Shown piece by piece: positions 12,009 through 31,671 of a stretch of DNA of 42,160 bases. The notes beneath the pieces were generated by a model that saw only the letters and a list, made by a program, of their open reading frames with translations, did no database searches and had not been told where the DNA came from. A program made the position numbers and the translations under genes. Every line of letters begins with the position of its first letter. The stretch's first letter is position 1. Source of the DNA: an uncultured Bacteroidia bacterium (lineage in GTDB: Bacteria > Bacteroidota > Bacteroidia > Bacteroidales > F082); NCBI GenBank assembly GCA_902802535.1, contig CADCML010000035.1, positions 1 through 42,160 on the forward strand, in the 5' to 3' direction.

Positions 12009-12165
12009 CTACAGATTCAACAGATTATACAGATCCAATTCAAAATTATAAGGATGCAAGCATCCAATTGATACAGATTCACAACTTTCTCCCCTCATCT
12101 GTACAAATCCGCAGCCTTGGCTGCAAAATTTCCGTACTACAATCTGCATAATCTGTGCAATCTGT
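12009..12165. repeat. Inverted array of a 9-bp-period hexamer (element A, ACAGAT)
   Basis: ACAGAT occurs at 12011, 12020 and 12029, exactly 9 bases apart. The reverse complement ATCTG(C/T) occurs at 12141, 12150 and 12159, again exactly 9 apart, giving two ~27-base arms that pair. The interior has two small hairpins, GGATGCAAGCATCC and GCAGCCTTGGCTGC, and another ACAGATT. It fills most of the 11995-12234 gap upstream of rimP and downstream of tRNA-Gln. No protein-coding frame in it is convincing. See the matching elements at 24276 and 31549. Confidence 0.85.
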
Positions 12166-12187
12166 AGTTTCTCTCCAAACTTCAAAT

Positions 12188-12216
12188 AAAAAAACCTGTT
12201 ACTCAAAGTAGCAGGT
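12188..12216 (-). terminator. Terminator of tRNA-Gln
   Basis: ACCTGTTAC (12194-12202) and GTAGCAGGT (12208-12216) form a 9-position stem with one mismatch around a TCAAA loop. On the minus strand it ends in a run of seven T. It lies 19 bases beyond the tRNA 3' end. Confidence 0.75.
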
Positions 12217-12234
12217 CTTTTCTTCCACCTCAAG

Positions 12235-12305
12235 TTGTCGAGCAAGGATTCGAACCTTGACAGGCAGAACCAAAATCTGCAGTGCTGCCATTACACCACT
12301 CGACA
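12235..12305 (-). tRNA. tRNA-Gln (anticodon TTG)
   Basis: 71 bases on the minus strand. The acceptor stem TGTCGAG pairs with CTCGACA, with discriminator A at 12235. The D arm contains GTGTAATGGCAGCAC. The anticodon stem GCAGA/TCTGC encloses the loop TTTTGGT with anticodon TTG, which reads CAA as glutamine. The T arm carries the usual GGTTCGAATCC. CCA is not encoded. A strong promoter match precedes it and a terminator follows, so it is a single-gene transcript. Confidence 0.96.
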
Positions 12306-12328
12306 TCATTCGTTCCTGAATGCGGCTG

Positions 12329-12358
12329 CAAAAGTACAACTTATTTCGTTACGCGCAA
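12329..12358 (-). promoter_or_regulatory. Promoter of tRNA-Gln (TTG-N19-TACTTTTG)
   Basis: Minus-strand TTG (12356-12358), 19 bases, then TACTTTTG (12329-12336) fits the Bacteroidota housekeeping consensus TTTG / TAnnTTTG with good spacing. The tRNA begins 23 bases downstream of the -7 box. Confidence 0.7.
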
Positions 12359-12432
12359 GCGTTTTTTTCGATTTTTTTGAAAAAAACTGCATTTCCTGTA
12401 CTGAAAGCACAATTTTGCAGTTATTCTCCATA

Positions 12433-12459
12433 TTGATAAGCCAAAAAAAACTATCTTTG
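12433..12459 (+). promoter_or_regulatory. Promoter of the CsgG-like operon (TTG-N16-TATCTTTG)
   Basis: TTG at 12433-12435 and TATCTTTG at 12452-12459 match the Bacteroidota consensus, though the 16-base spacing is a little short. The CsgG-like ATG is 53 bases further on. With the tRNA promoter on the other strand this makes 12306-12512 a divergent promoter region; nothing else was seen in it. Confidence 0.6.
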
Positions 12460-12512
12460 CAAATTTGAACAAACCATCGGACAAAAATCATAAACAAATA
12501 ATTTTCAAACAG

Positions 12513-13391
12513 ATGAAAAACATCAGACTAATTGCAATCCTCGCGCTGTTGGCCATTTTTGGCACCACCGCGAGCGCCCAAGAGGGCAAGACGCTGAAAC
12601 GGAAAGTGGCCATCGGTCGTTTCACCAATGAGACCCAATATGGCAAAGGCATCTTCTACGACCGCGAGAACGATCCCATGCGCAAACAGGCTATGGACAT
12701 TCTCTCATCGAAGTTGGCCGCCAGCGGCAAGTTCATTCTTTTGGAACGCGACGACCTTGATGTCCTCGTGAAAGAGGCCGGTACCGAAATGCAGAAAATC
12801 GGTGCCGATTACATCATCCTCGGCTCCATCACCCAATTTGGCCGCAAGACCGAAGGCGACGAGCGCATCTTCAGCTCCACAAAGACCCAAACCGTTGAAG
12901 CTGCGGTGAATGTCCGCCTCGTCGATGTAGCTTCAGGCCTCATCATCTATTCCGACGAAGCCAAAGGCCAAGCCGAAACCTCGTCGAAGACCACTTTGGG
13001 CATTGGCGGCACTGCCGGTTTCGATGCCACGCTGAGCGACAAGGCCATCTCGGCTGCCCTCACCCAACTCGTGGAAAACATCATCAACAAGTGCATGGAC
13101 AAGCCGTGGCGTGGCTATGTACTGACCATTGACGACGATGATTATGTCATTTCAGGTGGAGCATCGCAAGGCATCACCCCGGGCACCAAGTTCGGCTTAT
13201 ATAAAAAAGGTAAGATGGTAAACAACCCGCAAACCGGAGCCAACGTCGAGCTTCCCGGCAAAAGATTGGGCCAAGTCACCGTGACCGCCAACTACGGCGA
13301 CACACCTGAGACCGAAATCTCATTCGCCACCTACGAAGGTGAAAAAATTGACAATGACCATCTTGAACTTTATTATCTATTGGAGGAATAA
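12513..13391 (+). CDS. CsgG/HfaB-family outer-membrane assembly protein
   Basis: 292 residues from the ATG at 12513, chosen because MKNIRLIAILALLAIFGTTASAQ is a clean signal peptide; an upstream in-frame TTG at 12465 would bury it. The CsgG-like core shows KVAIGRFTNET near the mature N-terminus, SSKLAASGKFILLERDDLD, GADYIILGSITQFG and AAVNVRLVDVASGLIIYSDEAKG. Unlike E. coli CsgG it lacks an obvious lipobox Cys. In E. coli, CsgG forms the secretion channel for curli. In many other bacteria a CsgG-like protein sits beside DUF4810 and GNA1162 lipoproteins, exactly as here, with no curli genes, so a curli role is not implied. First gene of a four-gene unit; 3 bases separate it from the next ATG. 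Confidence 0.9.
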   Translation: MKNIRLIAILALLAIFGTTASAQEGKTLKRKVAIGRFTNETQYGKGIFYDRENDPMRKQAMDILSSKLAASGKFILLERDDLDVLVKEAGTEMQKIGADYIILGSITQFGRKTEGDERIFSSTKTQTVEAAVNVRLVDVASGLIIYSDEAKGQAETSSKTTLGIGGTAGFDATLSDKAISAALTQLVENIINKCMDKPWRGYVLTIDDDDYVISGGASQGITPGTKFGLYKKGKMVNNPQTGANVELPGKRLGQVTVTANYGDTPETEISFATYEGEKIDNDHLELYYLLEE

Positions 13392-13394
13392 GCC

Positions 13395-13742
13395 ATGAAA
13401 AAAATCATCCTTGCCACCCTTTGCCTTTTTGTTTCCACATTGTTCACCTCTTGTGGCGTAGGCAACTATACTGTCACTTCGGGCATCGAGGACAAGGCCG
13501 CCGTGTGTTTTTCGGCCTCATCCGCCTACGACATTGACGTCACCATCGATGGTCAGCAGTATACGACCAGCACCGTGAAAGACATCGCACACAAAACCCG
13601 CCGCAACATAAAGCAGACTGCCAAACAGTCAATCATCACCATGCCCGGTCGCCACAAAGTGGAAGTGAAACGCAATGGTACGACCGTCTATTCCAAGGAA
13701 GTGATGCTCTCGACCGGCGAAACCAAAATCATCGAGTTATGA
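13395..13742 (+). CDS. Small lipoprotein of the CsgG-like operon
   Basis: 115 residues with a type II signal peptide, lipobox LFTSC at residues ~16-20. The mature part is beta-rich (YDIDVTIDGQQYTTSTVKD, then ITMPGRHKVEVKRNGTTVY) and recalls PEGA-like carbohydrate- or wall-associated folds, but no family is recognised with confidence. Its last codon overlaps the start of the next gene (ATGA), indicating translational coupling. It is inserted between the CsgG-like gene and the DUF4810 gene, which are usually adjacent. Confidence 0.8.
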   Translation: MKKIILATLCLFVSTLFTSCGVGNYTVTSGIEDKAAVCFSASSAYDIDVTIDGQQYTTSTVKDIAHKTRRNIKQTAKQSIITMPGRHKVEVKRNGTTVYSKEVMLSTGETKIIEL

Positions 13743-14188
13743 AGAAACTGATTGTTCTTCTCGGACTTGCAGTGGCGCTCAGCTCGTGCGAGGTCAAGTC
13801 AAACCTCTACAACTGGGGGAACAAGAGCAGCTCAAAAAACGCCACGGAATACGAGTCGAGCGTGTACAACTACTATCATTCGCAGTCACCAGAAAGCCTC
13901 TGTGCCTTACTATGCGAATACGAATACATGGTTACCCATCCGGGCGGCGAGCGCGGCGTTGTGCCTCCGGGCATCTGCGCCGAGTATGGCTACCTGCTGC
14001 TCAGTCCCAACACACCGCAAATCTTCAGCGCACACGCCACAAAACGGCAGAAAGAGCGTTTCAGCTCGGGCGACTATAGTGCCACGTTCCGCGAAAAAGG
14101 AATATCAATGCTCCAGAAAGAGATTGAGCTCTATCCTGAATCCGCTGTATTCATCCAACCCCTCATCAAGAAATTCAGCCAACAATGA
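13739..14188 (+). CDS. DUF4810 lipoprotein
   Basis: 149 residues; signal peptide with lipobox ALSSC. The mature start SNLYNWGNKSS (family pattern LYxWGxY) and the later GICAEYGYLLLSPN, then YSATFREKGISMLQKEIELYPES, fit DUF4810, a periplasm-facing lipoprotein family nearly always found between CsgG-like and GNA1162/DUF799 genes. The start overlaps the preceding stop and the stop overlaps the following start by four bases each. Role unknown; presumably part of an outer-membrane complex with its two partners. Confidence 0.85.
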   Translation: MKKLIVLLGLAVALSSCEVKSNLYNWGNKSSSKNATEYESSVYNYYHSQSPESLCALLCEYEYMVTHPGGERGVVPPGICAEYGYLLLSPNTPQIFSAHATKRQKERFSSGDYSATFREKGISMLQKEIELYPESAVFIQPLIKKFSQQ

Positions 14189-14871
14189 GAAAGCACACCA
14201 TCATCCTGATTGCGGCCTGTGCCGTGCTGTTCGCCTCATGCGGAACCAACGCAACCTTCACACGCGGCGAACTCTACCCGAAAATGTATGAGGAAAAGCC
14301 TGTGACCTTGTTGGTAATGCCACCCATCAACAACTCCAACAACGTGGAAGCCAAGGATTTGCTTTACACTTCGATAAGCCAACCTTTGGCCGAGGCAGGC
14401 TACTACGTCATCTCGCCCCATTTGGCCATGGAAATTTTCAAGGCCGAGAGTGCCTACGATGCGGAGTTGTTCATCAACAATAGCGTAACGCCGTTCGGCA
14501 AGGTGTTTGGGGCCGATGCCGTCATCTTCACCACCATCGATGAGTGGAAGAAGCAAGGCTTTGGCATTCGCACCAACATCTCCTACATCGTGAAATCCAC
14601 CCGCTCCAACGAAATCATCTTCGACCGCTCCTGCGACCTCTATTTGGACTTGCAAGACAACAACTATTATGGTGGCGGAATTGTAGGCGCATTGGCCAAT
14701 GTCGCAGTTTCGGCCATCAACACCGCCCTGACCGACCACATCGTGGCGGCCCGCAAGTGCAACGCCTACATCTTCAAGGACATACCGCAAGGCAAATACC
14801 GCAAGGAATACCAGCAAGACCGTGAGATTGCTGCCGAAGCGAAAAACGTGACGAAGACCGTAAAACAATAA
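14185..14871 (+). CDS. GNA1162/DUF799 family lipoprotein
   Basis: 228 residues; lipobox LFASC near residue 20. The family pattern is clear: PVTLLVMPPINNSNNVEAKD, LAEAGYYVISPHLAME, FGKVFGADAVIFTTIDEW, ISYIVKSTRSNEIIFDRS, and a small Gly/Ala-rich segment GGGIVGALANVAVSAIN. The Neisseria homologue GNA1162 is a surface-exposed lipoprotein with a fold related to ligand-binding or CsgG-like domains. It ends the four-gene unit; the DUF2723 gene begins 27 bases downstream without a clear promoter box and may be read through. Confidence 0.88.
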   Translation: MRKHTIILIAACAVLFASCGTNATFTRGELYPKMYEEKPVTLLVMPPINNSNNVEAKDLLYTSISQPLAEAGYYVISPHLAMEIFKAESAYDAELFINNSVTPFGKVFGADAVIFTTIDEWKKQGFGIRTNISYIVKSTRSNEIIFDRSCDLYLDLQDNNYYGGGIVGALANVAVSAINTALTDHIVAARKCNAYIFKDIPQGKYRKEYQQDREIAAEAKNVTKTVKQ

Positions 14872-14898
14872 GTTAACCCAAAAACAACAAATACCATT

Positions 14899-17800
14899 AT
14901 GACTTTCAAGAAGTTAAACTGCATTACAGGATGGTTGGCAGGCATCATCGCCACCATCGTGTACTTCCTCACACTGGAACCTACCGTGAGCTGGTGGGAC
15001 TGTGGTGAGTACATTTCAACGGCTTACAAACTGCAAGTGGGTCACCCGCCCGGGGCACCGCTGTTCCAGATGCTCGGGCGATTCTTCACGCTCTTTGCGG
15101 GCGGCGACGTCACCAAGGTGGCCATGATGGTCAATGTGATGTCGGCCATCTGCAGCGGTCTTACCATCGTCTTCCTCTTCTGGACTATCACCATGATGGT
15201 CCGCAAAGTTTGGATGAAGGAAGGCGAAGACGCGCCATGGATTAATAAAATAGGTGTACTGCTGGCCGGCTTCGTCGGTGCGGTGGCCTACACCTTCACC
15301 GAGTCGTTCTGGTTCAACGCCGTGGAGGGCGAGGTCTACGCCATGTCGTCGTTCTTCACTGCCGTCACTTTCTGGGCCATCCTGAAGTGGGAACAAGTTT
15401 CCGACGACCCTAAGAGCACCCGATGGATCATTTTCATCGCCTTCCTCATCGGCCTGTCCATCGGTGTACACCTGCTTAACTTGCTGTGTGTGCCCGCCTT
15501 CGTGTATGTGGTTTATTTCAAGAAGTGGAAAAAGACCTCGTTTGGAGGTTTCGTCTTGGCTGGCGTGGTATCGGTGGCCTTGTTGTGGTTCCTCAACATG
15601 TTCCTCGTGCCTCAAGTCATCAACTTGGCGGGCAAGACGGAGCTGTTCTTCGTGAACACCCTGCACGCACCGTTCAACCTCGGTTCCATCGTGTTTTTCG
15701 CCGTCGTCATCGGACTTATCGTTTGGGGACTTTGGTCCACTTCCAAGCACGGCAAGGTGATGTGGAACACCGCCATCCTCTCCCTGATGTTCATCCTGAT
15801 TGGCTATTCCTCGTTCTTCATGCTGATTATCCGTGCCAACACCAACACGCCCATCAACGAAAACGAACCGAAGGAAGCCCTTTCGATGCTGGCCTACATC
15901 AACCGCGACCAATACGGCAGTTGGCCTTTGATGTACGGACCTTATTACAACGCGCCCATCTCCGATTGGGTTGACGGCACACCCGTTTATGTGAAGGACA
16001 AGGAAGCCGGCAAATATGTCATCACCGACGACAACAAACGCAGCAAGCCCGAATATCCCGACGAGATGAAAACCCTCTTCCCTCGCATGTGGAGTATGCA
16101 AAGAGGCTCACACTCAGAGATGTATGATAGCTACCGCAAGAATGCAAACGGCGTGGTCACAGGTACGCCTGTGCGCGTGCAAAACTACCGTGGCGAGTCG
16201 GTCATGGTCAACAAGCCCACATTCGGGCAAAACATGAAGTTCTTCATCGACTACCAATGCAACTGGATGTATTGGCGCTACTTTTTATGGAACTTCGTGG
16301 GTCGCCAAAACGACATTGAGAGCCAAGGCGAACTCACCCATGGCAACTGGCTCAGCGGCATCAGTGCCATCGACAACGCCCGCCTCGGCGACCAAGACAA
16401 CATCCCTGCCTGCTTGCAAAACCCGGGCCGCACCACCTATTATTTCCTGCCGCTGCTGCTCGGTCTCATCGGCCTGTTCTGGTTGCTCAAAAACGACCTG
16501 AAGCAGAGCTGGATCATCTTCCTGCTCTTCTTCATGACAGGTTTGGCCATCGTCATCTACCTCAACCAAACCCCGCAACAGCCTCGCGAGCGCGACTATA
16601 GCTACGCCGGCTCGTTCTACGCCTTCGCCATCTGGATTGGTTTCGGTGTCATCGCCCTCATCGACTGGATCAACAAACTGACCAAGAAAAGCAGCATGAT
16701 TACCACGGTTGCCGTCGGCTTGGCTTGTTTCCTTGCCGTGCCTTGTGTTTTGGCCTCCAATGGCTGGGAAGAACACAATCGTTCGGGCAAGACTTCGGCC
16801 CGCGACTGGGCGAAGAACTACTTAGCCCAGCTGCCGCCCAACGCCGTCATCTTCACCCGTGGCGACAACGACACCTTCCCGCTTTGGTACGTCCAAGAAG
16901 TGGAAGGCTTCCGCACCGATGTGCGCGTGTGCAACTACATGCTTTCGAGCGGCTATTGGTACGTCCACCAGATGGGCCGCAAGGTGTATGAGTCCGAGAA
17001 GCTTCCACTCACATTGACCCAAAAGGAGTACGACAACGGCGTCAACGAGCAGATTCCCGTCGAGGAGGAAGAATACTTCAAGGACAAGCAGGTAGAGTTG
17101 AAGCAAGTCATCGACTTTATCCACAACCCCAAAGCCGTGAAGCGCTACGTGGGCGGCACCTATAATTATATCCCCTGCCGCAAAGTGAAGCTCACCGTCG
17201 ACAAGGAGGCCTGCATCCGCAACGGCATCGTTCCCGAAAGCATGAAAGACCGCATCGTAGACGAAATCACTTGGGAAATCACGGACAACAACATCTGGAA
17301 GTCAGGGTTGATGCTCTTAGACTTCATGGCCACCAACAATTGGGAACGCCCGGTGTACTTCACCTCGTTCAGCGACATGTCGAAGGTGTTGGGCATCGAC
17401 AAATACCTGCACATGGAAGGCTTGGCCTACCGATTCATCCCTGTTGAAGCCGAAGACTACGTCAGAGCCTATCATGGCGGCGTTTACCGCGACGGTTGCT
17501 ACGACCTGCTGGTCACCAAAGCCAACGAAGGCATCACCAATTGGGGCAGCATGAACCAGGAAGGCGTGGTGCCCGACCGCGAGAGCGTGCGCAACCTGAG
17601 TTATGCCCAGTTGGCCTATTCGCGTTTGGCGCAATCCTTGGTCAATCACGGCCAATTCGACTCCGCCGTCATCGTGATGGACAAGTTCCAGGAGTTCTTC
17701 CCGAATGAGAAGTTCCCTGTCGAGATCCACACCTACCAGTACCCTGAAATGTACTACATCTGCGGCGACTCCATAAAGGGCGACGCCTACATGATGAACT

Positions 17801-18003
17801 TGGTCAACAACTACAGCGACAAGGTGGTTTACTACGGCAACATGAAGCCCAAGTTCAAGAAATACTTCGAGGACGAGCTTGACGAAGGCCTGAGCCTGCT
17901 CAAGCACTTCGGCGACGTGGCCAAGCGATACGAGCGCAACGAGCTGGCGCAAGACATCACCGACCGCTTGACACAGTTCGTTTCCTTGTATTATGAGGAG
18001 TAA
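14899..18003 (+). CDS. DUF2723 multi-pass membrane protein (TMEM260-like glycosyltransferase)
   Basis: 1034 residues. The N-terminal half has about a dozen hydrophobic segments; the C-terminal ~400 residues are soluble with TPR-like helices near the end (LSYAQLAYSRLAQSLVNHGQ). The DUF2723 signature is intact: LEPTVSWWDCGEYISTAYKL with its acidic pair, then VGHPPGAPLFQMLGR, and NAVEGEVYAMSSFF. The family resembles GT-C enzymes that use lipid-linked sugars, and the human homologue TMEM260 is a protein O-mannosyltransferase. In Bacteroidota a role in periplasmic or surface protein glycosylation is likely but not shown here. Periplasmic loops include PRERDYSYAGSFY and FTRGDNDTFPLWY, typical of the family. 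Followed by a strong terminator. Confidence 0.93.
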   Translation: MTFKKLNCITGWLAGIIATIVYFLTLEPTVSWWDCGEYISTAYKLQVGHPPGAPLFQMLGRFFTLFAGGDVTKVAMMVNVMSAICSGLTIVFLFWTITMMVRKVWMKEGEDAPWINKIGVLLAGFVGAVAYTFTESFWFNAVEGEVYAMSSFFTAVTFWAILKWEQVSDDPKSTRWIIFIAFLIGLSIGVHLLNLLCVPAFVYVVYFKKWKKTSFGGFVLAGVVSVALLWFLNMFLVPQVINLAGKTELFFVNTLHAPFNLGSIVFFAVVIGLIVWGLWSTSKHGKVMWNTAILSLMFILIGYSSFFMLIIRANTNTPINENEPKEALSMLAYINRDQYGSWPLMYGPYYNAPISDWVDGTPVYVKDKEAGKYVITDDNKRSKPEYPDEMKTLFPRMWSMQRGSHSEMYDSYRKNANGVVTGTPVRVQNYRGESVMVNKPTFGQNMKFFIDYQCNWMYWRYFLWNFVGRQNDIESQGELTHGNWLSGISAIDNARLGDQDNIPACLQNPGRTTYYFLPLLLGLIGLFWLLKNDLKQSWIIFLLFFMTGLAIVIYLNQTPQQPRERDYSYAGSFYAFAIWIGFGVIALIDWINKLTKKSSMITTVAVGLACFLAVPCVLASNGWEEHNRSGKTSARDWAKNYLAQLPPNAVIFTRGDNDTFPLWYVQEVEGFRTDVRVCNYMLSSGYWYVHQMGRKVYESEKLPLTLTQKEYDNGVNEQIPVEEEEYFKDKQVELKQVIDFIHNPKAVKRYVGGTYNYIPCRKVKLTVDKEACIRNGIVPESMKDRIVDEITWEITDNNIWKSGLMLLDFMATNNWERPVYFTSFSDMSKVLGIDKYLHMEGLAYRFIPVEAEDYVRAYHGGVYRDGCYDLLVTKANEGITNWGSMNQEGVVPDRESVRNLSYAQLAYSRLAQSLVNHGQFDSAVIVMDKFQEFFPNEKFPVEIHTYQYPEMYYICGDSIKGDAYMMNLVNNYSDKVVYYGNMKPKFKKYFEDELDEGLSLLKHFGDVAKRYERNELAQDITDRLTQFVSLYYEE

Positions 18004-18021
18004 GGCCTTGTCAATGCTATG

Positions 18022-18059
18022 AAAAGCCAGCGTTCGAGCACCTCGGACGCTGGCTTTTT
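18022..18059 (+). terminator. Strong intrinsic terminator after the DUF2723 gene
   Basis: AAAAGCCAGCGTTCGAG pairs with CTCGGACGCTGGCTTTT around a short loop (one internal mismatch), followed by T's. It lies between the plus-strand DUF2723 gene and the convergent secreted-protein gene and probably works for both. Confidence 0.9.
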
Positions 18060-18108
18060 GTTTGGTGATGCTTTAAAGAGTTTCCCCAAGCGAAACGAAG
18101 GGGAATCT

Positions 18109-19659: not shown

Positions 19660-19698
19660 GTTTCTGTAGATTGGATTATTCGGGAGAAACACCCAATT

Positions 19699-19747
19699 CC
19701 AGCGGATTTGCAATCCGCTGGCCTTGAAACGGGGATTTGCAATCCCC
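19699..19747. repeat. Pair of REP-like hairpins in the 5' leader
   Basis: Two perfect hairpins share the core GGATTTGCAATCC. The first has a 10-bp stem (CCAGCGGATT/AATCCGCTGG, 19699-19721) and a TGC loop; the second a 7-bp stem (GGGGATT/AATCCCC, 19731-19747) and the same loop. They lie between the predicted promoter (19789) and the ATG (19659), so they would be transcribed in the leader of paralogue 1. Confidence 0.8.
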
Positions 19748-19788
19748 TTTTGTGCGCAATCAACTCTCATTTTTAATCGTTCAGCCTG

Positions 19789-24226: not shown

Positions 24227-24243
24227 GATTTGAAATTTTGGGG

Positions 24244-24272
24244 CAAAAATAACACTTTTTTCATTGCGCAAA
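24244..24272 (-). promoter_or_regulatory. Promoter of lgt (TTTG-N17-TATTTTTG)
   Basis: Minus-strand TTTG (24269-24272), 17 bases, TATTTTTG (24244-24251), then 17 bases to the lgt ATG. Good match to the Bacteroidota consensus, though the leader is short. Confidence 0.6.
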
Positions 24273-24275
24273 GAA

Positions 24276-24383
24276 AACTACGAATGACACGAATAAAACG
24301 AATCTCATATTCGTAAAATTAGTGCAGCAAGCTGCAAAATTCATACGAATCGGCATTCGCGACAATTCGTGAAATTCGTAGTT
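24276..24383. repeat. Inverted array of a 9-bp-period hexamer (element B, ACGAAT)
   Basis: ACGAAT occurs at 24280, 24289 and 24298, each 9 apart. The reverse complement ATTCG(C/T) occurs at 24355, 24365 and 24374. The outermost bases AACTACGAAT and ATTCGTAGTT pair exactly. Nested inside, ATTCGT (24309) and ACGAAT (24345) flank GCAGCAAGCTGC (24324-24335). The string GCTGCAAAATT beside that hairpin is shared with element A, supporting a common family. It fills the divergent gap between lgt and the ECF sigma gene. Confidence 0.85.
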
Positions 24384-24405
24384 AGAAAAAAATTCATAGT
24401 TAAGT

Positions 24406-24430
24406 GTAACTTTTTCGCCCTTTCTCCGTA
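24406..24430 (+). promoter_or_regulatory. ECF-type promoter of the sigma factor gene
   Basis: GTAAC (24406-24410), 16 bases, CGTA (24427-24430), then 14 bases to the ATG. The GTAAC/CGTA pair with a 16-base spacer resembles ECF sigma recognition sites and suggests autoregulation. A copy differing by one base over 30 lies at 27725-27754 on the minus strand. Confidence 0.65.
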
Positions 24431-24444
24431 TTACCAATATCGCG

Positions 24445-24945
24445 ATGAACAGAACCCAATACAACCGATGCGTGGAGCAATACGCCGATAGGCTTTTCCG
24501 CTTCGCATTCTCGAGCCTCCGCAACCGCGAAGAGGCCGAGGACGTGGTGCAGGAAAGCTTTGCCCGCGTTTGGGAACGGCATGACAACGTGGACTTTACG
24601 AAGGCAAAGTCGTACCTCTTCACCACCGCCCACCACGCCATAATTGACGGACTGCGCCAATCGCCCCCAACCACAGAAATAGAAACACAAACCCAATTGT
24701 CAGACCCCAACGCCAGAGCGCCCTACCCCGACGTCAACGAGGTGTTGCACAAGGCACTCGGCACCCTGCCCGAACTGCAACGCAACGCCATCCTGCTGCG
24801 CGACTATGAGGGCTACAGCTACCAAGAAATCGGCGACATCACGGGCATGAGCGAAGCGCAAGTGAAAGTGAACATCTTCCGCGCCCGCACCACACTGAAA
24901 CGCATCATCAAAAGCATCGACAACCTCATCGACATAGAGCCATGA
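24445..24945 (+). CDS. ECF-family RNA polymerase sigma factor
   Basis: 166 residues. Region 2 reads RFAFSSLRNREEAEDVVQES, followed by FARVWERHDNVDFTKAKSYL; region 4 reads LGTLPELQRNAILLRDYEGY, then SYQEIGDITGMSEAQVKVNI with FRARTTLK. The length and the absence of regions 1 and 3 fit an ECF factor of the Bacteroidota sigma-70 type. It overlaps the next gene by ATGA. That gene encodes a membrane protein likely to hold it inactive. It probably directs RNA polymerase to its own promoter and to the GIN/barrel gene on the other side. Confidence 0.95.
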   Translation: MNRTQYNRCVEQYADRLFRFAFSSLRNREEAEDVVQESFARVWERHDNVDFTKAKSYLFTTAHHAIIDGLRQSPPTTEIETQTQLSDPNARAPYPDVNEVLHKALGTLPELQRNAILLRDYEGYSYQEIGDITGMSEAQVKVNIFRARTTLKRIIKSIDNLIDIEP

Positions 24946-25853
24946 AAACGAACATCAACACAGAAAACTACGAAGCCTATCTCCTTGACTACATGGAAGG
25001 CAACCTCAGCCCCGAAGGGGCGGCGGAATTGCGAGCCTTCATCGCAGCACAGGGCTTGGACTGGGACGAACTCACCGCTCCCCTGCCCTACCTTGAAACG
25101 CCACAAATCGTTTACGAAGGCAAGGAAAAGTTGAAACAAAGGTTCAGGGACCCTGAACCTGTCGAAGGGTCGAAGGGCCGCTTTTCTGACAACACCAAGG
25201 TCATCCCGCTCTATGTCAAGATAGCCTCGGCTGCCGCTGCCGCCGGACTACTGCTCACCGTCACACTATGGCCCAAACAGCAGTTGCCCAAGGTGGAGCC
25301 GATTGCCCACCTGCAATCTATTGAGGTCAGTCGCATCGACACCCATGAGCCTTGGACTTTGCTGCCACGACGAGCTATAGAAAACATAAATCCCTTGCCA
25401 CGCATCAACCGCCATGATGATGACACGCCTCCTAAAGACCCAAACAATGGGCGCATTGCCGCCGAGAGGGAATTTGTACCTTTGTTGGCCGAATTACCGG
25501 CAAAAACCATCACTGTTTTGGAGACCGATTTGCCTTGGGCCGACATTGACGAGCACGACTTTGAATTTATGGCCTGGCGCATGAACGCCCATCTCGAATA
25601 CGCCCCATACGAGGCAAACGATTATTCCGACGATGCCGACGACGAGCGCGAGCTCTCCTGGATTGGGAAAGCCATTTTCAAACTGACCAATGGTCGCCAC
25701 GACAGTTTCGCCAGCCTCATCTCTTCAGGTATCACTGTTGCCAAGAAAGAAATCAGCGTGGCGGCCACCGACATGGCTCTGACTGCCTACCATCGCGCCG
25801 ACGAGCACCTCGAGGAAGCCAAGGAACGCTGGGAAGAGAAACGCGAGGAATGA
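24942..25853 (+). CDS. Membrane-anchored anti-sigma factor candidate
   Basis: 303 residues. The N-terminus NYEAYLLDYMEGNLSPEGAA matches the usual start of Bacteroidota proteins paired with ECF sigma factors. One transmembrane segment lies at ~86-105 (VKIASAAAAAGLLLTVTLW). The C-terminal ~195 residues would be periplasmic and end in a charged helix. The position (4-base overlap with sigma) and topology indicate an anti-sigma factor; no zinc-finger HxxxCxxC is present. Residues ~68-78 (DPEPVEGSKG) are encoded by a REP-like palindrome inserted in frame between the sigma-binding part and the membrane segment. Its 3' end converges on the GIN/barrel gene. Confidence 0.8.
   Translation: MKTNINTENYEAYLLDYMEGNLSPEGAAELRAFIAAQGLDWDELTAPLPYLETPQIVYEGKEKLKQRFRDPEPVEGSKGRFSDNTKVIPLYVKIASAAAAAGLLLTVTLWPKQQLPKVEPIAHLQSIEVSRIDTHEPWTLLPRRAIENINPLPRINRHDDDTPPKDPNNGRIAAEREFVPLLAELPAKTITVLETDLPWADIDEHDFEFMAWRMNAHLEYAPYEANDYSDDADDERELSWIGKAIFKLTNGRHDSFASLISSGITVAKKEISVAATDMALTAYHRADEHLEEAKERWEEKREE
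25149..25171 (+). repeat. REP-like palindrome inside the anti-sigma gene
   Basis: GACCCT at 25149-25154 and AGGGTC at 25166-25171 bracket GAACCTGTCGA. It also overlaps a perfect 19-base palindrome-like stem, GGTTCAGGG-A-CCCTGAACC (25141-25159). Elements of the GACCCTTCGACAGG type are dispersed in many bacterial genomes. Here it is translated in frame as DPEPVEGS. Confidence 0.8.
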
Positions 25854-25887
25854 TGCTTTGCACGCAGCTTTTAAGTAATGTATAAAC

Positions 25888-25915
25888 GTATAGACGTAGC
25901 CCACTACGTCTATAC
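25888..25915. terminator. 12-bp hairpin between convergent genes
   Basis: GTATAGACGTAG (25888-25899) and CTACGTCTATAC (25904-25915) form a perfect 12-bp stem around CCCA. It lies 35 bases past the anti-sigma stop and 86 before the stop of the convergent GIN/barrel gene. A T-rich but not uniform tail follows, so it is a plausible but not textbook terminator. Confidence 0.55.
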
Positions 25916-25937
25916 CATTCTTATAATTCTGCGGATT

Positions 25938-25986
25938 CTGCGTGAGAAAACACCTGCGTGAGAAAACACCTGCGTGAGACAATCAC
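25938..25986. repeat. Three tandem 16-17-bp units
   Basis: CTGCGTGAGAAAACAC is present twice exactly (25938-25953, 25954-25969) and a third time as CTGCGTGAGACAATCAC (25970-25986). Just before, ATTCTGCG occurs at 25926 and 25935, 9 bases apart. Non-coding, between two convergent genes. Confidence 0.85.
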
Positions 25987-26001
25987 CTGCAAGAAAAAAT
26001 A

Positions 26002-27591
26002 TCAGAAATTGATATTGAAACCAAAGCTGAGCGGACGAGTGTTTTCGATAACGTTGTAGCGATAGATTGGAATCAGCGCATAGTTGATAAAGAAACCCAT
26101 ATTGTGGCTACCCACGCGCAACGAGGCATCTAACTTGAAGCGGTTCAGGCAATTGCCTGCCCAATCCAGATTGGTGGTGTACTTGGTTCCGTCCACAAAT
26201 TTCACCTTGCTCCAAGCAGCGAAACGGAGTCCTCCAGTCACGCCGATGTCAATGAACATGCGGCGCGTAGGCCTGATTTCCAACATCAGCGGCACTTGCA
26301 AATACAACAGCCCCAGTTTGCTTTTCTTGAACTGAACATCGGACGAAAGTGGAACATTGGAGATTATTCCTGTTTCGGGGTCTTGCGTGGTCATGACAGG
26401 GTTTTTCCAACTGAAGTTGTTCCAGCCAATGCCGATACCGGTAAACAGCCCTACTATGTGTCTCCTATCGAAAGCGATACCCACGTCAGCAATGTTGAAG
26501 CCGAAATACCAACTTCTCAACGGCCTGATGGTCAAATCGACTGTACCAGAGGGGATAACGTTCGTCACAACCGGATTGAACAGCATGTTCAGGCCCGCAT
26601 CGAAGCCATTCCAATGGGCATCGAGAAGCAGACTCCTCTTTACGGGACGCTTTTCTTTGGATTCGTCTTTTTTTTCAGATTCGTCTTTCTTTGGCTCCGG
26701 ACTATTGTATTGGTAATTATAATGATACTCATGGTTTCCGCCATACTTTTTCTCAAAACGATCTCCCCATTTCTCCATTTTGCGGCCCCATTCTTCCATA
26801 TCGGCTCCCCATTTCTCCATGTCTTGCTCAAACTTCTTCCAGTCCACCGAATCGGAAAGTTGTTGGAGGTTTACCCCAAGTTCGCGCATCAGTTCTTTAA
26901 ATTGAAGCGTATCAAGAGGCTCATAACCTGCTTTGACGTTGAAAGAAGGGTCCCAAGAACGGTTCGACTCGGCCTCGAAGAAAGGGGCAGCGTTACTAAC
27001 CAACCCATTCAGATAATTTCTTCTCGTATCGGTAAGTTCATCATCGATATTGATAGCCATGTTCCACAGGTCACCACTTTTCTCTACCAATACCTTATAA
27101 TTCAGGTTACTTGCATTCACTTTACCCAAACTCTTCACCTCGCTGCAATAGACGTTACAGTCGCCGAGAAGAATCACATCGCCAGTCCCGCATGAACGGA
27201 CATAGATGTTGTTATAGCCGACCTCAAGGCTTAATATGCCAGTACCCGTCTTGTTGATGGAGAGATTCTCACCTTTCAACTGGCCCTTTGATCTGACTCC
27301 CGCCGTACCCAAAACCTTCAAATAAGCCAGATTTTGAAGAGTTAACTCACGAGCTCCCGTACCTTCAAGATACAAAACGCTATCTTCAACACGATACTTG
27401 GCATTGTGATGCCCATAATCATTAATCGTCAGTTTGTCACCTTGTTTAAGCCACACACTGCCAGTGCCACTTACCACCAAAGTGTTGATTTTACTACCAT
27501 CCCCATTGGGTGTAGGGATTGGTTTGTCTTGCGCCTTCACGCTTCCGAAGGCCAGCAGCAGCATCGCTGCAAAAATCATTCTTGTTTTCAT
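26002..27591 (-). CDS. GIN-domain plus outer-membrane beta-barrel protein
   Basis: 529 residues; signal peptide MKTRMIFAAMLLLAFGSVKA. Residues ~30-190 form a DUF2807 (GIN, 'head') beta-helix: INTLVVSGTGSVWLKQGDKL, LAYLKVLGTAGVRSKGQLKG, LSINKTGTGILSLEVGYNNI, GTGDVILLGDCN. A charged linker has four near-repeats of MEKWG/MEEWG followed by a Lys/Glu/Pro stretch (~255-310). The last ~220 residues look like an outer-membrane barrel (GIGIGWNNFSWKNPV, LGLLYLQVPLMLEIRPTRRM, LSFGFNINF with terminal Phe). A copy of the ECF sigma promoter lies ~140 bases upstream, so it is likely controlled by that sigma factor. Probable envelope-stress or envelope-maintenance protein; exact role unknown. Confidence 0.85.
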   Translation of the reverse strand: MKTRMIFAAMLLLAFGSVKAQDKPIPTPNGDGSKINTLVVSGTGSVWLKQGDKLTINDYGHHNAKYRVEDSVLYLEGTGARELTLQNLAYLKVLGTAGVRSKGQLKGENLSINKTGTGILSLEVGYNNIYVRSCGTGDVILLGDCNVYCSEVKSLGKVNASNLNYKVLVEKSGDLWNMAINIDDELTDTRRNYLNGLVSNAAPFFEAESNRSWDPSFNVKAGYEPLDTLQFKELMRELGVNLQQLSDSVDWKKFEQDMEKWGADMEEWGRKMEKWGDRFEKKYGGNHEYHYNYQYNSPEPKKDESEKKDESKEKRPVKRSLLLDAHWNGFDAGLNMLFNPVVTNVIPSGTVDLTIRPLRSWYFGFNIADVGIAFDRRHIVGLFTGIGIGWNNFSWKNPVMTTQDPETGIISNVPLSSDVQFKKSKLGLLYLQVPLMLEIRPTRRMFIDIGVTGGLRFAAWSKVKFVDGTKYTTNLDWAGNCLNRFKLDASLRVGSHNMGFFINYALIPIYRYNVIENTRPLSFGFNINF

Positions 27592-27632
27592 TTTGTTGAA
27601 GTTTAGGTTGTTATTCGTATTACAAAATCATT

Positions 27633-27718
27633 GACTCAAGACTGGGGACTTGGGACTTAAGACTAGAGACTTTGTCCTTTGTCCTCTGTCCGTTGTCCTT
27701 TGTCTTCTTTCCTCTGTC
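27633..27718. repeat. Inverted heptad array (element D, GACnnnn)
   Basis: GAC occurs at 27633, 27640, 27647, 27654, 27661 and 27668, exactly 7 apart. The complement GTC then occurs at 27674, 27681, 27688, 27695, 27702 and 27716, in phase at 7 with one degenerate position (27709). The two six-unit arms run in opposite orientation with almost no loop. It lies in the leader between the ECF-type promoter (27730) and the GIN/barrel ATG (27591). Confidence 0.85.
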
Positions 27719-27729
27719 AACATCAGTAA

Positions 27730-27754
27730 TACGGAGAAAGGGGGAAAAAGTTAC
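27730..27754 (-). promoter_or_regulatory. Second ECF-type promoter, for the GIN/barrel gene
   Basis: On the minus strand: GTAAC (27750-27754), 16 bases, CGTA (27730-27733). The 30 bases 27725-27754 differ from 24406-24435 at one position. Transcription from here would run left through element D into the GIN/barrel gene with a ~130-base leader. Confidence 0.65.
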
Positions 27755-27772
27755 AGGCATGGCGAAAATTTT

Positions 27773-29071
27773 TCAAATGAACGCCGCCATATACAAAGGA
27801 ACATAAAGGATTTTTTCTGTCTTTTCGTAATTGAACTTGTTCATTACCATTACTTTGCCTATCTTTTCAGGCTGTTCCTCCAAGGCCGTATCCACCGAAC
27901 CGTGACGCTTGTAGGTGTCGCCCGACTTCACCTCAATAATGGTCACCTTGTTGTCTTCGGCCAACAAGAAATCCAGTTCCTGGCGGCTCTTGCGGTCGTA
28001 ATAGTGCAGCTTGTGACCATGCTTGCGCAACTCGGCGGCAACGAAATTCTCCGTCAAGGCACCCTCGTTGATGTCGATTTCGCCGTTCATCACCTTCAAT
28101 TGGATGTCGTCGCCCCACAACGCGCAAAGCAGCCCAGTGTCAAGCATATACACCTTGAAAAGGCTGCGGTTCTCCTCTTGTTCAAACGGCAAGGCCAACG
28201 AGTGCAGGTTGTAGCAAAAATAGGCCACGCCCGCATCATCGAGCCACGAAGCCGCGTCCTCATACTTCTGCATCGAGGCGGTCTGCTCCATGTTTTTCAG
28301 GATAAAACGCTTCTTCTGCTTGCTCAGTTCCGACGGGATGGCATCGAAAAAGCGCTTGGCCTTGGTCTTTTGCTCGGCAGCGTACTTGGCGATGTCGTCG
28401 CGGTAGCTTTGTATGATTTTCCGCTGCTGCAACAATGTAGCCGCAAAGTCGGCATTGTGGTTATAGGTGGAAACCACCTCTGGCATACCGCCAACAATCA
28501 GATACTCACGGTAATACTTCATCATTTGCTCGTGAACGAACTTCGTGACCGGTGATTGGTTCAAGAACGCTTCACGCAAACTTTCAATAGCCATCTCACC
28601 CACGCCTCGCGCCCAAAGAAACTCCTCGAAATCCATCGGAAACATCTCGATTTGCCGCTCAAAGCCAACGGGATACGACGACACATCCTTATAGTTGATG
28701 CCCAACAGCGAACCCGACTCGATATAGTCATAAACGCCCTCCTCCACCAAAAACTTGATGGCGGTGCGTGCATTCGGGCAACTTTGGATTTCGTCGAAAA
28801 AGACAAGCGTCTTGCCCTCGATGAAAGGCCCGTAGCCCATCAAAGAGAGGTTCCCGATGATGGTTTTCGTGTCGCGCTTGCCGTCAAAAGCGGTCTTGGC
28901 ATTGGGGTCTAATTCGAAGTTGATTTCCACAAAACTCCGATAGTTTTTCTTGCCAAATTCACGCACAACAGTGGTTTTCCCGACTTGTCGCGCCCCCTTG
29001 ATTAAAAGAGCTTCTTTATGCGGATTTTTGCTCCAATCACTTAAAAACCTGATTATCTTTCTTTTATACAT
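27773..29071 (-). CDS. AAA-family ATPase with DUF4143
   Basis: 432 residues. Walker A is LIKGARQVGKTTVVREF (~24-40), Walker B TLVFFDEIQSCPNARTAI (~105), followed by VEEGVYDYIESGSLLGINYK (sensor 1 like). The DUF4143 C-terminal half includes EFLWARG, VGGMPEVVSTY, SIPSEL-like IPSELSKQKKRF, and near the end the nuclease-like core ELDFLLAEDNKVTIIEVKSG, a D-x(n)-E-x-K arrangement. These proteins are multicopy in Bacteroidales with no agreed function; toxin-antitoxin and defence roles have been suggested. The start overlaps by 8 bases the stop of a 65-codon repeat ORF, and the 33-bp repeat array plus a good promoter lie just upstream. Confidence 0.93.
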   Translation of the reverse strand: MYKRKIIRFLSDWSKNPHKEALLIKGARQVGKTTVVREFGKKNYRSFVEINFELDPNAKTAFDGKRDTKTIIGNLSLMGYGPFIEGKTLVFFDEIQSCPNARTAIKFLVEEGVYDYIESGSLLGINYKDVSSYPVGFERQIEMFPMDFEEFLWARGVGEMAIESLREAFLNQSPVTKFVHEQMMKYYREYLIVGGMPEVVSTYNHNADFAATLLQQRKIIQSYRDDIAKYAAEQKTKAKRFFDAIPSELSKQKKRFILKNMEQTASMQKYEDAASWLDDAGVAYFCYNLHSLALPFEQEENRSLFKVYMLDTGLLCALWGDDIQLKVMNGEIDINEGALTENFVAAELRKHGHKLHYYDRKSRQELDFLLAEDNKVTIIEVKSGDTYKRHGSVDTALEEQPEKIGKVMVMNKFNYEKTEKILYVPLYMAAFI

Positions 29072-29261
29072 AGATTAAGTAACTTTTTGCAGGTATTTCG
29101 CTGCAAAGATAGTAACTTTTTGCAGATAAAAACAAGTTTTCACGGTAACTTTTTGCAGGTAATTTCAGCCTTTCACGGTAACTTTTTGCAGGTAAAATCG
29201 GTTCTCCACGGTAACTTTTTGCAAGTTGTGTGTCCTCAAAGTCCATTCTGGCGTGGTTCAT
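29064..29261 (-). CDS. Possible 65-residue repeat peptide (AKSYR repeats)
   Basis: An open frame on the minus strand encodes five AKSY motifs, each 11 residues after the last: LAKSYRGEPI, LPAKSYRERLK, LPAKSYRENLF, LSAKSYYLCSE, IPAKSYLIYV. The periodicity is that of the 33-bp DNA repeat. It begins inside the end of the beta-mannosidase gene, and its stop overlaps the ATPase ATG by 8 bases, a geometry that would permit coupling. Against it: the predicted ATPase promoter (29104-29135) lies within it, so most would not be on that transcript, and any 33-bp repeat without stops would look like this. It could equally be non-coding operator DNA. Confidence 0.3.
   Translation of the reverse strand: MNHARMDFEDTQLAKSYRGEPILPAKSYRERLKLPAKSYRENLFLSAKSYYLCSEIPAKSYLIYV
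29079..29226. repeat. Five-copy 33-bp-period repeat upstream of the ATPase
   Basis: GTAACTTTTTGCAGGT begins at 29079, 29112, 29145, 29178 and 29211: exactly 33 bases each time. Copies 1, 3 and 4 are identical; copy 2 ends GCAGAT and copy 5 GCAAGT. Copies 3-5 are also preceded by CACG or CCACG. The 17 bases between the conserved blocks differ. Copy 1 lies downstream of the predicted -7 box, copy 2 between -33 and -7, and copies 3-5 upstream. Confidence 0.95.
29104..29135 (-). promoter_or_regulatory. Promoter of the DUF4143 ATPase (TTG-N21-TATCTTTG)
   Basis: Minus strand: TTG (29133-29135), 21 bases, TATCTTTG (29104-29111), then 32 bases to the ATPase ATG. A good Bacteroidota match. Repeat copy 2 (29112-29127) lies entirely between the two boxes, so a protein bound to it would block polymerase. 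Confidence 0.6.
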
Positions 29262-31530
29262 AAAAAGCGAAAAAATAGCATTTGCGCTCAGCGGTGAGGG
29301 TGTCGCCTTCGGCCAGTTCCAACTTCACATACACCTTCTGCAAGTCGACTTTGCGCAAACAATCGCTCAAGCCTTCAACGACGAATTTACGATTCTCGTT
29401 AGCCTCCAACTTCACCTGCAATTCTTGTTCAAACAGCGGACGGTTTTCAAGGTCGAACACCGTGACGGACAACGTGCCATCGATGTTGCGAAGCAAGTCG
29501 GAAGTGACAAAAATGCCGTAATCTATTTGGTCGAGGCTTAAAAGCACGGGCGCGAAAAGCGTTTTCAGCCGCTCTTGCAGCACCTTGGGATGGCCGTAAT
29601 AGTCAATGGACGACCACGAAGTCACGGGCCAAGCGTCGTTGAGTTGCCAATAGAGCGTGCCCATGTTGTAAGGCTTGGCCGTGCGGTGCGCCTCAATCGC
29701 GATTTCCATGCCGTAGGCCTGCGAAAGCTGGCTCAAATAGACGTATTCCTCAAAGTCTTTCGGCTGAATGTCAGGAAAATAACGTTTGATAAAATCATCG
29801 ATTTGGCGCGTGCCACGCGCGTGTTTTTGGTGTGCCGCGATGACCTCGGCATCCATACTCAATTCCTCGCCTTGCGCGATTTTCAGCAAGGTTTGGTAAT
29901 CGGGATAGCTTTGGTAGCCGTACTCGCTGTTGAAACGGCCCACCTTCTCGCGATACATTTCGTAGGGTTGTTCGCCCCACCAAACGCCCCAATAATGCAC
30001 ATCGCCTTCAGTCAGGCTTTCGGGTCGTCCCCAGCCTTTTGAGGGCGAACTGGGCCAATAGGGTCGTGTGCCGTCAAATTGTGCAACAGCCTGAGGCAGA
30101 ATATCTTCAAACAATCTGTCATAACCTGCCTTTATCGCTTTGTCATCTTCTTCCGACCAATTCAGTGACTTTTGCCAACCCCAGTTGTAGTAGCCTTCCG
30201 AAATCTCATTTCCGCCACACCACAGAGCCAACGACGGATGCGAAGCCAAACGCTTCACCTGCTCCTCCGCCTCGATTCGGGCGTTTTCTAAGAAAGCCTC
30301 GTCGTACGGATACATCGTGCCGGCATACATAAAGTCTTCCCAAACCAAGATGCCGAGTTTGTCACAAAGCGTGAAAAAGTCATCGGAGGGATAAATGCCA
30401 CCGCCCCATACGCGCAACATATTGAAATGAGCGTCTTTGGCTTGCTCCAAAAGACGAATCGTGTGGTCAACATCATTCCAGGTCTCAATCATCTCCTCGG
30501 GAATGTAGTTCGCGCCTTTGGCATAGAATGGCACACCGTTTACCTTGAAATAGAACGCCCGCCCGATGCTGTCAGGCTCATCGATCATCTCGAAGGTTTT
30601 AATACCAGACCATATTTTCTTGAAATCCAAAACCTTATCCCCGTCTTTTAGGAGAACATCAAAGACATAAAGCGGTTGTTCGCCCATCTCGTTTGGCCAC
30701 CATAATTCTGGATTTTCAATTTCAAAGTTCAGGATCTCATTTTGGGTACCGCCATTAAGGTGTATGTTTTTCTGGCTGTTTTTCTCACCATTGACATAGA
30801 TTTCCGCCACGTAATTTCCTTCAGCCTTACTTTCCAAATCGAGGCATAAACGCATCGTAGCCTTCTCGTTATCAATGTTTTCTGTGAGAATATATGCATC
30901 TTGCAATTTCGCATTCGACCAACCAATCAATTCCACCCGTTTCCAGATGCCCACATTCTTGTACTTCGGCGCCCAGTCCCAGCCATGCTGATAGGGTGCT
31001 TTGCGCGTGACGGCGTATTTTTCCGGCAATTTTGGCTGATGTTGCTCATACAAAGCCAATTGCGTGCTGTCATAACGAAGGAAATGCACTTCCAAAAGGT
31101 TGTCTTTCTTCTTCAGCAAGTCTTTCACTTCATGTTTCCATGCGCGGAATTGGTTGTCGGCAAAAAACAATTTTTCACCGTTCAAGGAAACATCAGCGTA
31201 TGTATCAATGCCTTCAAAGACGAGTTCAACATTCTCTTTTTCAAGCAATTCCTTGTCCGCATTGAAATGCAAAGTGAAGTCCCAAGGATGGTCGGAAATC
31301 CAGAGCAATTGGTTTTCCACCGTGCCGAGATAAGGATGGGGGATCAGGCCGTTTTCGTAGAGGCTTTGCTGCACCACCGAAGGCACATCGACCTGCATAT
31401 TAATATTTAAGGTGTCGCCCGTGAGCGTCCAGCCTTGGTTGAGGTTTTGCACGACAACGTTCAGCTTTTCATTTTTTTGGCAGCCAACAAAAACGGCTAA
31501 AACCAACAAACAAGAGAATACTTTTTTCAT
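29236..31530 (-). CDS. GH2 beta-mannosidase-like lipoprotein
   Basis: 764 residues with lipobox VFVGC (Cys ~17). It has the GH2 layout: sugar-binding jelly roll (VPSVVQQSLYENGLIPHPYL, ELVFEGIDTYADVSLNGEKL), the substrate motif YQHGWDWAPKYKNVGIWKRV, an Ig-like domain, then the TIM barrel with NMLRVWGGGIYPSDDFF, the acid/base GGNEISE (~438) and nucleophile FNSEYGYQSYPD (~535), and LNDAWPVTSWSSIDYYG. These fit exo-beta-mannosidase rather than beta-galactosidase. Predicted to release mannose from beta-mannosides or N-glycan-derived chains at the cell surface or periplasm. It is ~100 residues shorter than typical bacterial members, with a compact C-terminal beta domain. No SusC/SusD pair is adjacent. 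Confidence 0.92.
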   Translation of the reverse strand: MKKVFSCLLVLAVFVGCQKNEKLNVVVQNLNQGWTLTGDTLNINMQVDVPSVVQQSLYENGLIPHPYLGTVENQLLWISDHPWDFTLHFNADKELLEKENVELVFEGIDTYADVSLNGEKLFFADNQFRAWKHEVKDLLKKKDNLLEVHFLRYDSTQLALYEQHQPKLPEKYAVTRKAPYQHGWDWAPKYKNVGIWKRVELIGWSNAKLQDAYILTENIDNEKATMRLCLDLESKAEGNYVAEIYVNGEKNSQKNIHLNGGTQNEILNFEIENPELWWPNEMGEQPLYVFDVLLKDGDKVLDFKKIWSGIKTFEMIDEPDSIGRAFYFKVNGVPFYAKGANYIPEEMIETWNDVDHTIRLLEQAKDAHFNMLRVWGGGIYPSDDFFTLCDKLGILVWEDFMYAGTMYPYDEAFLENARIEAEEQVKRLASHPSLALWCGGNEISEGYYNWGWQKSLNWSEEDDKAIKAGYDRLFEDILPQAVAQFDGTRPYWPSSPSKGWGRPESLTEGDVHYWGVWWGEQPYEMYREKVGRFNSEYGYQSYPDYQTLLKIAQGEELSMDAEVIAAHQKHARGTRQIDDFIKRYFPDIQPKDFEEYVYLSQLSQAYGMEIAIEAHRTAKPYNMGTLYWQLNDAWPVTSWSSIDYYGHPKVLQERLKTLFAPVLLSLDQIDYGIFVTSDLLRNIDGTLSVTVFDLENRPLFEQELQVKLEANENRKFVVEGLSDCLRKVDLQKVYVKLELAEGDTLTAERKCYFFAFYEPRQNGL

Positions 31531-31548
31531 GGCATATTTTCTTTTTTC

Positions 31549-31671
31549 ACAAAACTTGCAAAACCTTCAAAACCATTTTCTTACACAGAAAGTCGCCAAC
31601 CAGCTCCTTTCCGGCGGCAAGGCGGTTGCCGAGCCGCACCCAAACAAAGTTTTGCCAGTTTTGTTGGTTTT
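31549..31671. repeat. Inverted array of a 9-bp-period hexamer (element C, CAAAAC)
   Basis: CAAAAC occurs at 31549, 31558 and 31567, each 9 apart. GTTTTG occurs at 31648, 31657 and 31666, each 9 apart. The outer ends CACAAAAC and GTTTTGTG pair. The interior contains a 6-bp hairpin, CGGCAA-GGCGG-TTGCCG. It fills the gap between the cutC stop and the beta-mannosidase start; no gene is visible there. Confidence 0.85.

Follow-up and report, generated by a model that had tools for sequence, protein, structure and literature searches.

The window analysed here is a 42,160-nt stretch of contig CADCML010000035.1 (assembly GCA_902802535.1, about 85% complete with 6.3% contamination) from an uncultured Bacteroidia bacterium of the F082 lineage. 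It carries three intergenic elements, which we call A, B and C (table 1). Each is bounded by inverted arms in which a hexamer is repeated three times at a period of 9 bp, and the hexamer, or word, differs from one element to the next. The elements have terminal inverted repeats without any gene between them and measure 108-163 bp. Several lines of evidence, given below, connect them to genes of the GxxExxY family of predicted nucleases, and the reading that suits them best is that of small mobile elements in gene-less form, comparable to miniature inverted-repeat transposable elements (MITEs), in the case of B by analogy.

The arms were first noticed in a reading of the letters alone. Direct reading confirms three elements with inverted arms of three hexamers each and differing words, local hairpins in the interior of all three, and a single 10-bp step in B, which falls in the right arm (steps of 10, then 9). 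The sequence-only reading counted exactly three hexamers on each side; this is true of the arm triples, but A and B are in fact 3+1, with an extra inner hexamer on each side of the center. The arms of C are as it described them, although placed one base too low (C's first hexamer starts at 31550, not 31549). The inverted repeat of A extends up to 28 nt with 89% complementarity. Both A and B start with CTAC and end with GTAG, and these ends are found neither in C nor in the GCAGAA and CACAGAT families described below.

Table 1. Features of elements A, B and C (window coordinates)
Feature	Position	Strand	Basis and details
Element A, gene-less ACAGAT element	12007..12169	.	inverted repeat AACTACAGAT.../...ATCTGTAGTT
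A left arm, 3 x ACAGAT, period 9	12011..12034	+	starts 12011, 12020, 12029
A hairpin GGATGC-AA-GCATCC	12052..12065	.	direct reading, folding; hairpin type shared with ACGAAT elements
A inner single hexamer ACAGAT	12073..12078	+	direct reading
A inner single hexamer (ATCTGT)	12097..12102	-	direct reading
A hairpin GCAGCC-TT-GGCTGC, then AAAATT	12111..12124	.	direct reading, folding
A right arm ATCTGC, ATCTGT, ATCTGT, period 9	12142..12165	-	starts 12142 (one mismatch), 12151, 12160
Element B, gene-less ACGAAT element	24276..24383	.	direct reading, folding
B left arm, 3 x ACGAAT, period 9	24280..24303	+	starts 24280, 24289, 24298
B inner single hexamer (ATTCGT)	24309..24314	-	direct reading
B hairpin GCAGC-AA-GCTGC, then AAAATT	24324..24335	.	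direct reading, folding
B inner single hexamer ACGAAT	24345..24350	+	direct reading
B right arm ATTCGC, ATTCGT, ATTCGT, steps 10, 9	24355..24379	-	starts 24355 (one mismatch), 24365, 24374
Element C, gene-less CAAAAC element	31548..31674	.	direct reading and scan; further dispersed copies here and in related genomes
C left arm, 3 x CAAAAC, period 9	31550..31573	+	starts 31550, 31559, 31568
C hairpin GCGGC...GCCGC	31614..31637	.	direct reading, folding
C right arm, 3 x GTTTTG, period 9	31649..31672	-	starts 31649, 31658, 31667

Shuffled sequence did not reproduce the geometry. A scan of the window for inverted period-9 pairs with the hexamer left free, the kind of check that the sequence-only reading had proposed for the whole genome and its relatives, returned A and C only, against none in 60 Markov-3 shuffles; the left triple of B was exact, and its right arm was missed because of the 10-bp step. 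In 396 kb of the same genome (20 stretches, of which 15 came from contigs picked for ACAGAT hits and five, totaling 100 kb, were chosen blind) there were 10 inverted period-9 sets, two of them in the blind part, compared with none after Markov-3 shuffling of these stretches. Repeated at other periods, the scan returned 5 (period 7), 3 (8), 1 (10), 0 (11), 1 (12), 0 (13) and 1 (15), and a direct rather than inverted period-9 pair was found once. Across the whole genome the ACAGAT triple occurs 22 times at up to two mismatches, its reversed control pattern not at all, and the triple of ACGAAT preceded by CTAC 42 times at up to one mismatch. We read 20 further stretches, 19 picked for ACGAAT and one for ACGGAT; all 19 of the former contain ACGAAT elements, mostly of 140-170 bp and with their parts in the same order. 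The proposal that constant geometry with varied hexamers is the property of a real family stands, but the family is not an isolated intergenic one, since its ends are common to elements that carry GxxExxY genes.

Four GxxExxY genes, which score above the curated cut-offs of TIGR04256 and PF13366, are encoded in this genome, and all four lie between period-9 arms. Scored as an inverted period-9 pair within 450 bp of the gene, the arms reach 32, 29, 36 and 35 of a maximum of 36. One gene has a GCAGAA-like word in its arms, one combines an ACAGAT arm with an ACGGAT arm, one has CAAAAC and one CACAGAT. A full element consists, in order, of a triple, a hairpin, a single hexamer, the gene, a reversed single hexamer, a hairpin and a reversed triple. 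Element A can be aligned with the C20 gene element (L044) at either end (77 bp each, at 80.5% and 75.3%), and element C likewise with the C55 gene element (L045) at either end (73 bp at 82.2%, 36 bp at 86.1%); both share interior sequence outside the arms with these gene elements. For A and C the simplest reading is an internal deletion of the gene, and the two are very probably gene-less members of GxxExxY-linked families. Element B matches the arms (25-30 bp) of ACGAAT-armed gene elements in relatives (L069, L070 and L099), together with 18 bp of hairpin. The C7 GxxExxY gene has a complete 88-bp element on each side, the two being almost the same in sequence and in direct orientation (L023:8526-8613 and 9059-9146); this gene stops early, 105 residues from its ATG, and has lost its last strands.

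The linkage of gene and arms extends to related genomes. We assembled 94 GxxExxY loci from this genome and its relatives (34 loci returned by the search plus 60 picked from same-genus rows of a longer list; 75 within the genus and 19 outside). At a threshold of 30, an inverted pair flanks the gene in 56/94 loci, as against 0/282 Markov-1 shuffles and 0/89 flanks taken 750-1200 bp away, and the same loci give 2/94 at period 10 and none at periods 7, 8 or 11. Within the genus the proportion is 53/75. When each upstream arm was paired with the downstream region of another, randomly chosen locus, 33/94 still reached 30, because the words are common to many loci; at a score of at least 33, only 7/94 did so, compared with 46/94 for a locus's own arm. 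The linkage was also sought for TIGR02436 genes, whose four-helix-bundle product we had suspected to be a second cargo. None of the five in this genome has inverted arms, one having a lone CCACCA-type triple, and this candidate was rejected. In a wider set (the 80 top-ranking among more than 568 confirmed stretches, comprising 49 from Bacteroidota and the rest from ten other phyla), 9/80 loci reach 30 at period 9, compared with 1/240 shuffles and 0/64 distant flanks, and these nine include two archaea, a planctomycete, a gammaproteobacterium and a member of the Dehalococcoidia. The contig scan behind this set was built on four closer proteins, as an alignment of 13 diverse members was too variable.

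GxxExxY (TIGR04256/PF13366) is a single-domain, Cas4/RecB-like predicted nuclease of the PD-(D/E)XK type. Across 13 aligned members the residues E, Y, D, E, K, Q and Y are invariant and follow one another in a RecB-like order. The motif (E-Y, D, ExK, Q-Y) is intact in 91/94 loci, showing the nuclease to be under selection. The structure is predicted with a mean local distance difference score (pLDDT) of 89.6, and its best Foldseek match in the PDB is 4ic1 (SSO0001, a Cas4; E 4e-4); AdnAB, lambda exonuclease and MGME1 match more weakly. Among solved structures no sequence relative was found at E values up to 1. The PADLOC Cas4 and Cas4b models match a few of the 13 members weakly (best E 2.5e-4); a weak match to the PADLOC RTasPDDEXK model was also seen. 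GxxExxY is present in 120 of the 149 genomes of this family of bacteria. The term GxxExxY occurs in PMC8934634 and PMC12085832, and PF13366 in PMC9756366. Literature searches, from which subscription journals were mostly absent, returned no paper on period-9 repeats or on GxxExxY within them, and no role described for GxxExxY proteins.

The arm word follows the lineage of the nuclease. For 57 hand-labeled loci in nine hexamer classes, the class changes 11 times on the GxxExxY protein tree, compared with 34-44 times in 200 label shuffles, a tracking that is in part vertical inheritance because many of these loci are orthologous. One site, flanked by a Nudix gene and by a gene encoding a YchF C-terminal domain, is shared by 19 genomes and holds a GxxExxY element whose hairpin frame is conserved and whose arms are mostly ACAGAT, ACGGAT or ACGAAT. 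In 13 of the 17 parsed loci the two sides have identical outermost hexamers (two further loci could not be parsed on both sides), and three of the four disagreements are mixed arms; the copy in this genome has ACAGAT on the left and ACGGAT on the right. This pattern of agreement and mixed arms suggests that arms tend to change as units and that the two need not change together. That arms differ as sets, in line with the sequence-only reading, is supported at this site.

The number and the word of dispersed arms go with the resident gene. For the resident word we counted CTAC-tagged triples of these three words in the 19 genomes, 16 of which could be given a gene class and 15 of which were used, with the gene's own two arms subtracted. 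The resident word accounts for a mean share of 0.60 of the CTAC-tagged arms, a value reached by 0-2 of 20,000 permutations in four variants of the test. A/B-type arms number 1-72 (median 12) in 19 genomes of the genus with the shared-site gene and 0-2 (median 0) in 18 without a GxxExxY match (p about 1e-7). This comparison covers 37 of 99 genus genomes; the other 62, some of which lacked a gene status, were unused and include the arm-rich G160 (56), G161 (63), G171 (39) and G076 (36).

Comparison of orthologous sites, also proposed in the sequence-only reading, showed presence/absence differences for A, B and C and different words at the C site and the shared site. None of the 29 orthologous sites read for element A contains it. 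The B site could be anchored in 24 of 29 relatives and has a period-9 triple in none of them, seven showing a gap of 18-20 bp there. At the C site of 29 relatives there are 8 CAAAAC elements, 17 GCAGAA elements (5 of which pass the strict inverted-pair test), two cases of other sequence, one without an element and one that could not be anchored; different word families thus occupy one intergenic slot. A second copy of the flanks of A, 85-92% identical, lies on another contig of this assembly (G000:C131:836-1392), which fits its level of contamination.

As single-stranded DNA, A and B fold with z-scores of -7.1 each and C with only -2.0, 7 of 200 shuffles being at least as stable as C. Among 41 ACGAAT elements with at most three mismatches per arm, none of 27 changed left-arm positions is compensated in the paired right hexamer, and we rejected the hypothesis that base pairing preserves the hexamers. 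The inner hairpins do keep their pairing: a stem of at least 5 occurs in 63/76 half-elements versus 15/76 shuffled ones, and the stems vary in the same place (GCAAC, GCAGCC, GGATGC, GCGGC, GGACGC). Unpaired changes in the hexamers combined with preserved hairpin pairing point to a protein that reads the hexamers and to a single-stranded or extruded hairpin state.

Based on these results, we favor a model in which the nuclease recognizes the hexamers, cuts and moves the elements, gene-less copies in trans included, and we consider this whole mechanism probable though well short of certain. The nuclease would bind the repeated hexamer, most likely on a single-stranded or extruded element, a state that we propose because the inner hairpins keep pairing. 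It would then cut at the element ends, and host repair would copy the element to a new intergenic site. Gene-less copies would be moved in trans by whichever nuclease reads their hexamer. As the preference of the nuclease drifts, arms with a new hexamer would be favored, and recombination with other copies could exchange whole arms, so that arms would be rewritten as sets. That arm motif and nuclease lineage change together suggests that DNA is moved by a system whose address can be rewritten.

A number of observations weigh against this model. The likeness of B to ACGAAT-armed gene elements lies mainly in the arms and the 18-bp hairpin stretch. A score below 30 was obtained for 38 of the 94 GxxExxY loci, and outside the genus only 3/19 reach that threshold. 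The elements contain no integrase, and no target-site duplication could be made out, the alleles without A being also diverged around the junction. Despite the 42 ACGAAT arms in this incomplete assembly, none of its four GxxExxY genes is ACGAAT-armed, and three of six genomes with an ACGGAT-armed gene (G123, G141 and G083) have ACGAAT arms in equal or larger number. The genome comparisons of resident word and of gene presence ignore shared ancestry. Finally, in the wider-phyla set period 10 is reached by 12/80 and period 8 by 5/80, against 9/80 at period 9; strict period 9 in distant phyla is thereby not supported, period 9 not being universal and the spacing looser there.

Three other explanations have to be set against movement by the nuclease. 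Another mover, either a Y1 transposase of the kind associated with repetitive extragenic palindromic (REP) sequences (REP-associated tyrosine transposase, RAYT) or a host process, may have dispersed the elements, with GxxExxY as a passenger or as a host nuclease merely acting on the arms. The CTAC start and GTAG end of A/B-type elements are indeed the tag of RAYT-mobilized REPs (PMC3733652), this genome has five Y1 transposase genes, and ACGAAT elements are plentiful here without an ACGAAT-armed gene. However, the 3.3-kb loci of all five Y1 genes lack period-9 triples, four of the five genes are flanked on both sides by long inverted repeats of other sequence, the CTAC/GTAG ends are missing from the C, GCAGAA and CACAGAT families, and the hexamer class tracks the GxxExxY tree. 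A Y1/RAYT partner was rejected because none of the five genes is linked to the arms, and we regard another mover of either kind as unlikely. The inverted repeats at the four Y1 loci (L332, L334, L335 and L336; e.g., CGCCCCGAAGGGGC) form a separate repeat system.

The arms might instead be a regulatory or structural platform for neighboring genes, such as an RNA hairpin, a terminator or a protein-binding site, with hexamers varying by concerted evolution within an element. Such a role would suit the strong single-strand folding of A and B, the inner stems that still pair while their sequence varies, and the intergenic location. The neighbors nevertheless manage without elements at every site read for A and every site anchored for B, pairing does not preserve the hexamers, and a nuclease gene between the arms is left unexplained. 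In the window Rfam at the gathering threshold finds tRNA only and no family matching the elements, so that a known structured RNA family was rejected. We consider a platform quite improbable. Least probable of all, and very improbable, is a homing-like or defense function, in which GxxExxY would be a sequence-specific nuclease with hexamer arrays that mark or protect host sites, and gene-less elements would serve as decoys or markers instead of being mobile copies. The Cas4-like fold and the weak PADLOC matches to Cas4 and RTasPDDEXK would agree with it, whereas the interior sequence that A and C have in common with gene elements is what internal deletion predicts. The search for defense gene clusters around GxxExxY extended to at most 1.5 kb.

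Other repeats were seen in the course of these scans. Within the window, period-9 repeats (CCACCT/CCACCA) at 2729-2842 are coding, lie inside an open reading frame of 1708 residues (151-5277, minus strand), lack an inverted partner and are unrelated to the arms. Inverted arrays of period 7, with words like ATGGCTT/TTAGCTA, are found in this genome (L027:8415-8495, L033:8083-8176 and L037:4036-4120) and at the B site of relatives (L199, L204 and L213-L217), and are apparently a sister geometry of that at period 9. Inverted arrays of period 8, of the GACTACGG/CCGTAGTC type, occur at L023:1200-1271 and L034:17989-18078. A second hairpin repeat, GTCATTGCGAGG...GAAGCAATCC, sits within the loop of period-9 elements of this genome (L173, L183, L187 and L190) and likewise in C-site elements (L233, L242-L244 and L251); it resembles the CGTC-tagged repeats described in PMC3733652.

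Cas4 nucleases act on DNA destined for integration, trimming it and reading short motifs in it. They resemble GxxExxY in its predicted fold and RecB-like motif. GxxExxY differs in having no conserved iron-sulfur cysteines in the 13-row alignment, no cas genes in the flanks read, and its own inverted hexamer arms on either side of the gene.

Among repeat systems, a close parallel is that of REPs, their paired form (REPINs) and RAYTs. As set out in PMC3733652 (see also PMC3116915 and PMC2817692), these are short dispersed intergenic palindromes, with several families per genome, a single-gene partner between the same repeats, and apparent action in trans on gene-less copies. The partner here is a Cas4/RecB-like PD-(D/E)XK nuclease rather than a Y1 HUH enzyme, the arms are three-hexamer arrays at period 9, and the Y1 genes of this genome are unlinked to them. 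The contrast with ordinary REPs drawn in the initial description, namely that these keep their sequence, is only partly right, as REP/RAYT systems too have several sequence families with cognate enzymes (PMC3733652). The BrickBuilt MITE of Porphyromonas gingivalis, another member of the Bacteroidota, is likewise short, intergenic and gene-less, with inverted ends and inner repeats. According to PMC4596501, its middle is composed of 23-nt tandem units without spacers, whereas the present elements have hexamers separated by 3-nt spacers at their ends and a nuclease gene as autonomous partner. The CGTC-tagged palindromic repeats, as described in PMC3733652, are dispersed hairpins without a dedicated transposase and count Bacteroidetes among their hosts; they have another sequence and no period-9 arms, although a similar repeat is nested in some of the present elements.

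More broadly, GxxExxY could be the core of an unrecognized class of mobile elements, spread over several bacterial phyla and archaea, whose only enzyme is a single Cas4-like nuclease, with inverted arrays of a short word as its rewritable address. Enzyme and address would evolve together, and gene-less copies would obey the nuclease that reads their word. We regard the case for and against this broader proposal as evenly balanced. If it is true, GxxExxY proteins would be the movers of a large and overlooked share of the intergenic repeats in these bacteria, and a Cas4-like nuclease could support transposition without any transposase. The natural pairs of hexamer and protein would provide a ready-made set for learning how nucleases of this kind read DNA and, more speculatively, the family would suggest how a selfish element could evolve into a Cas4-type integration helper.

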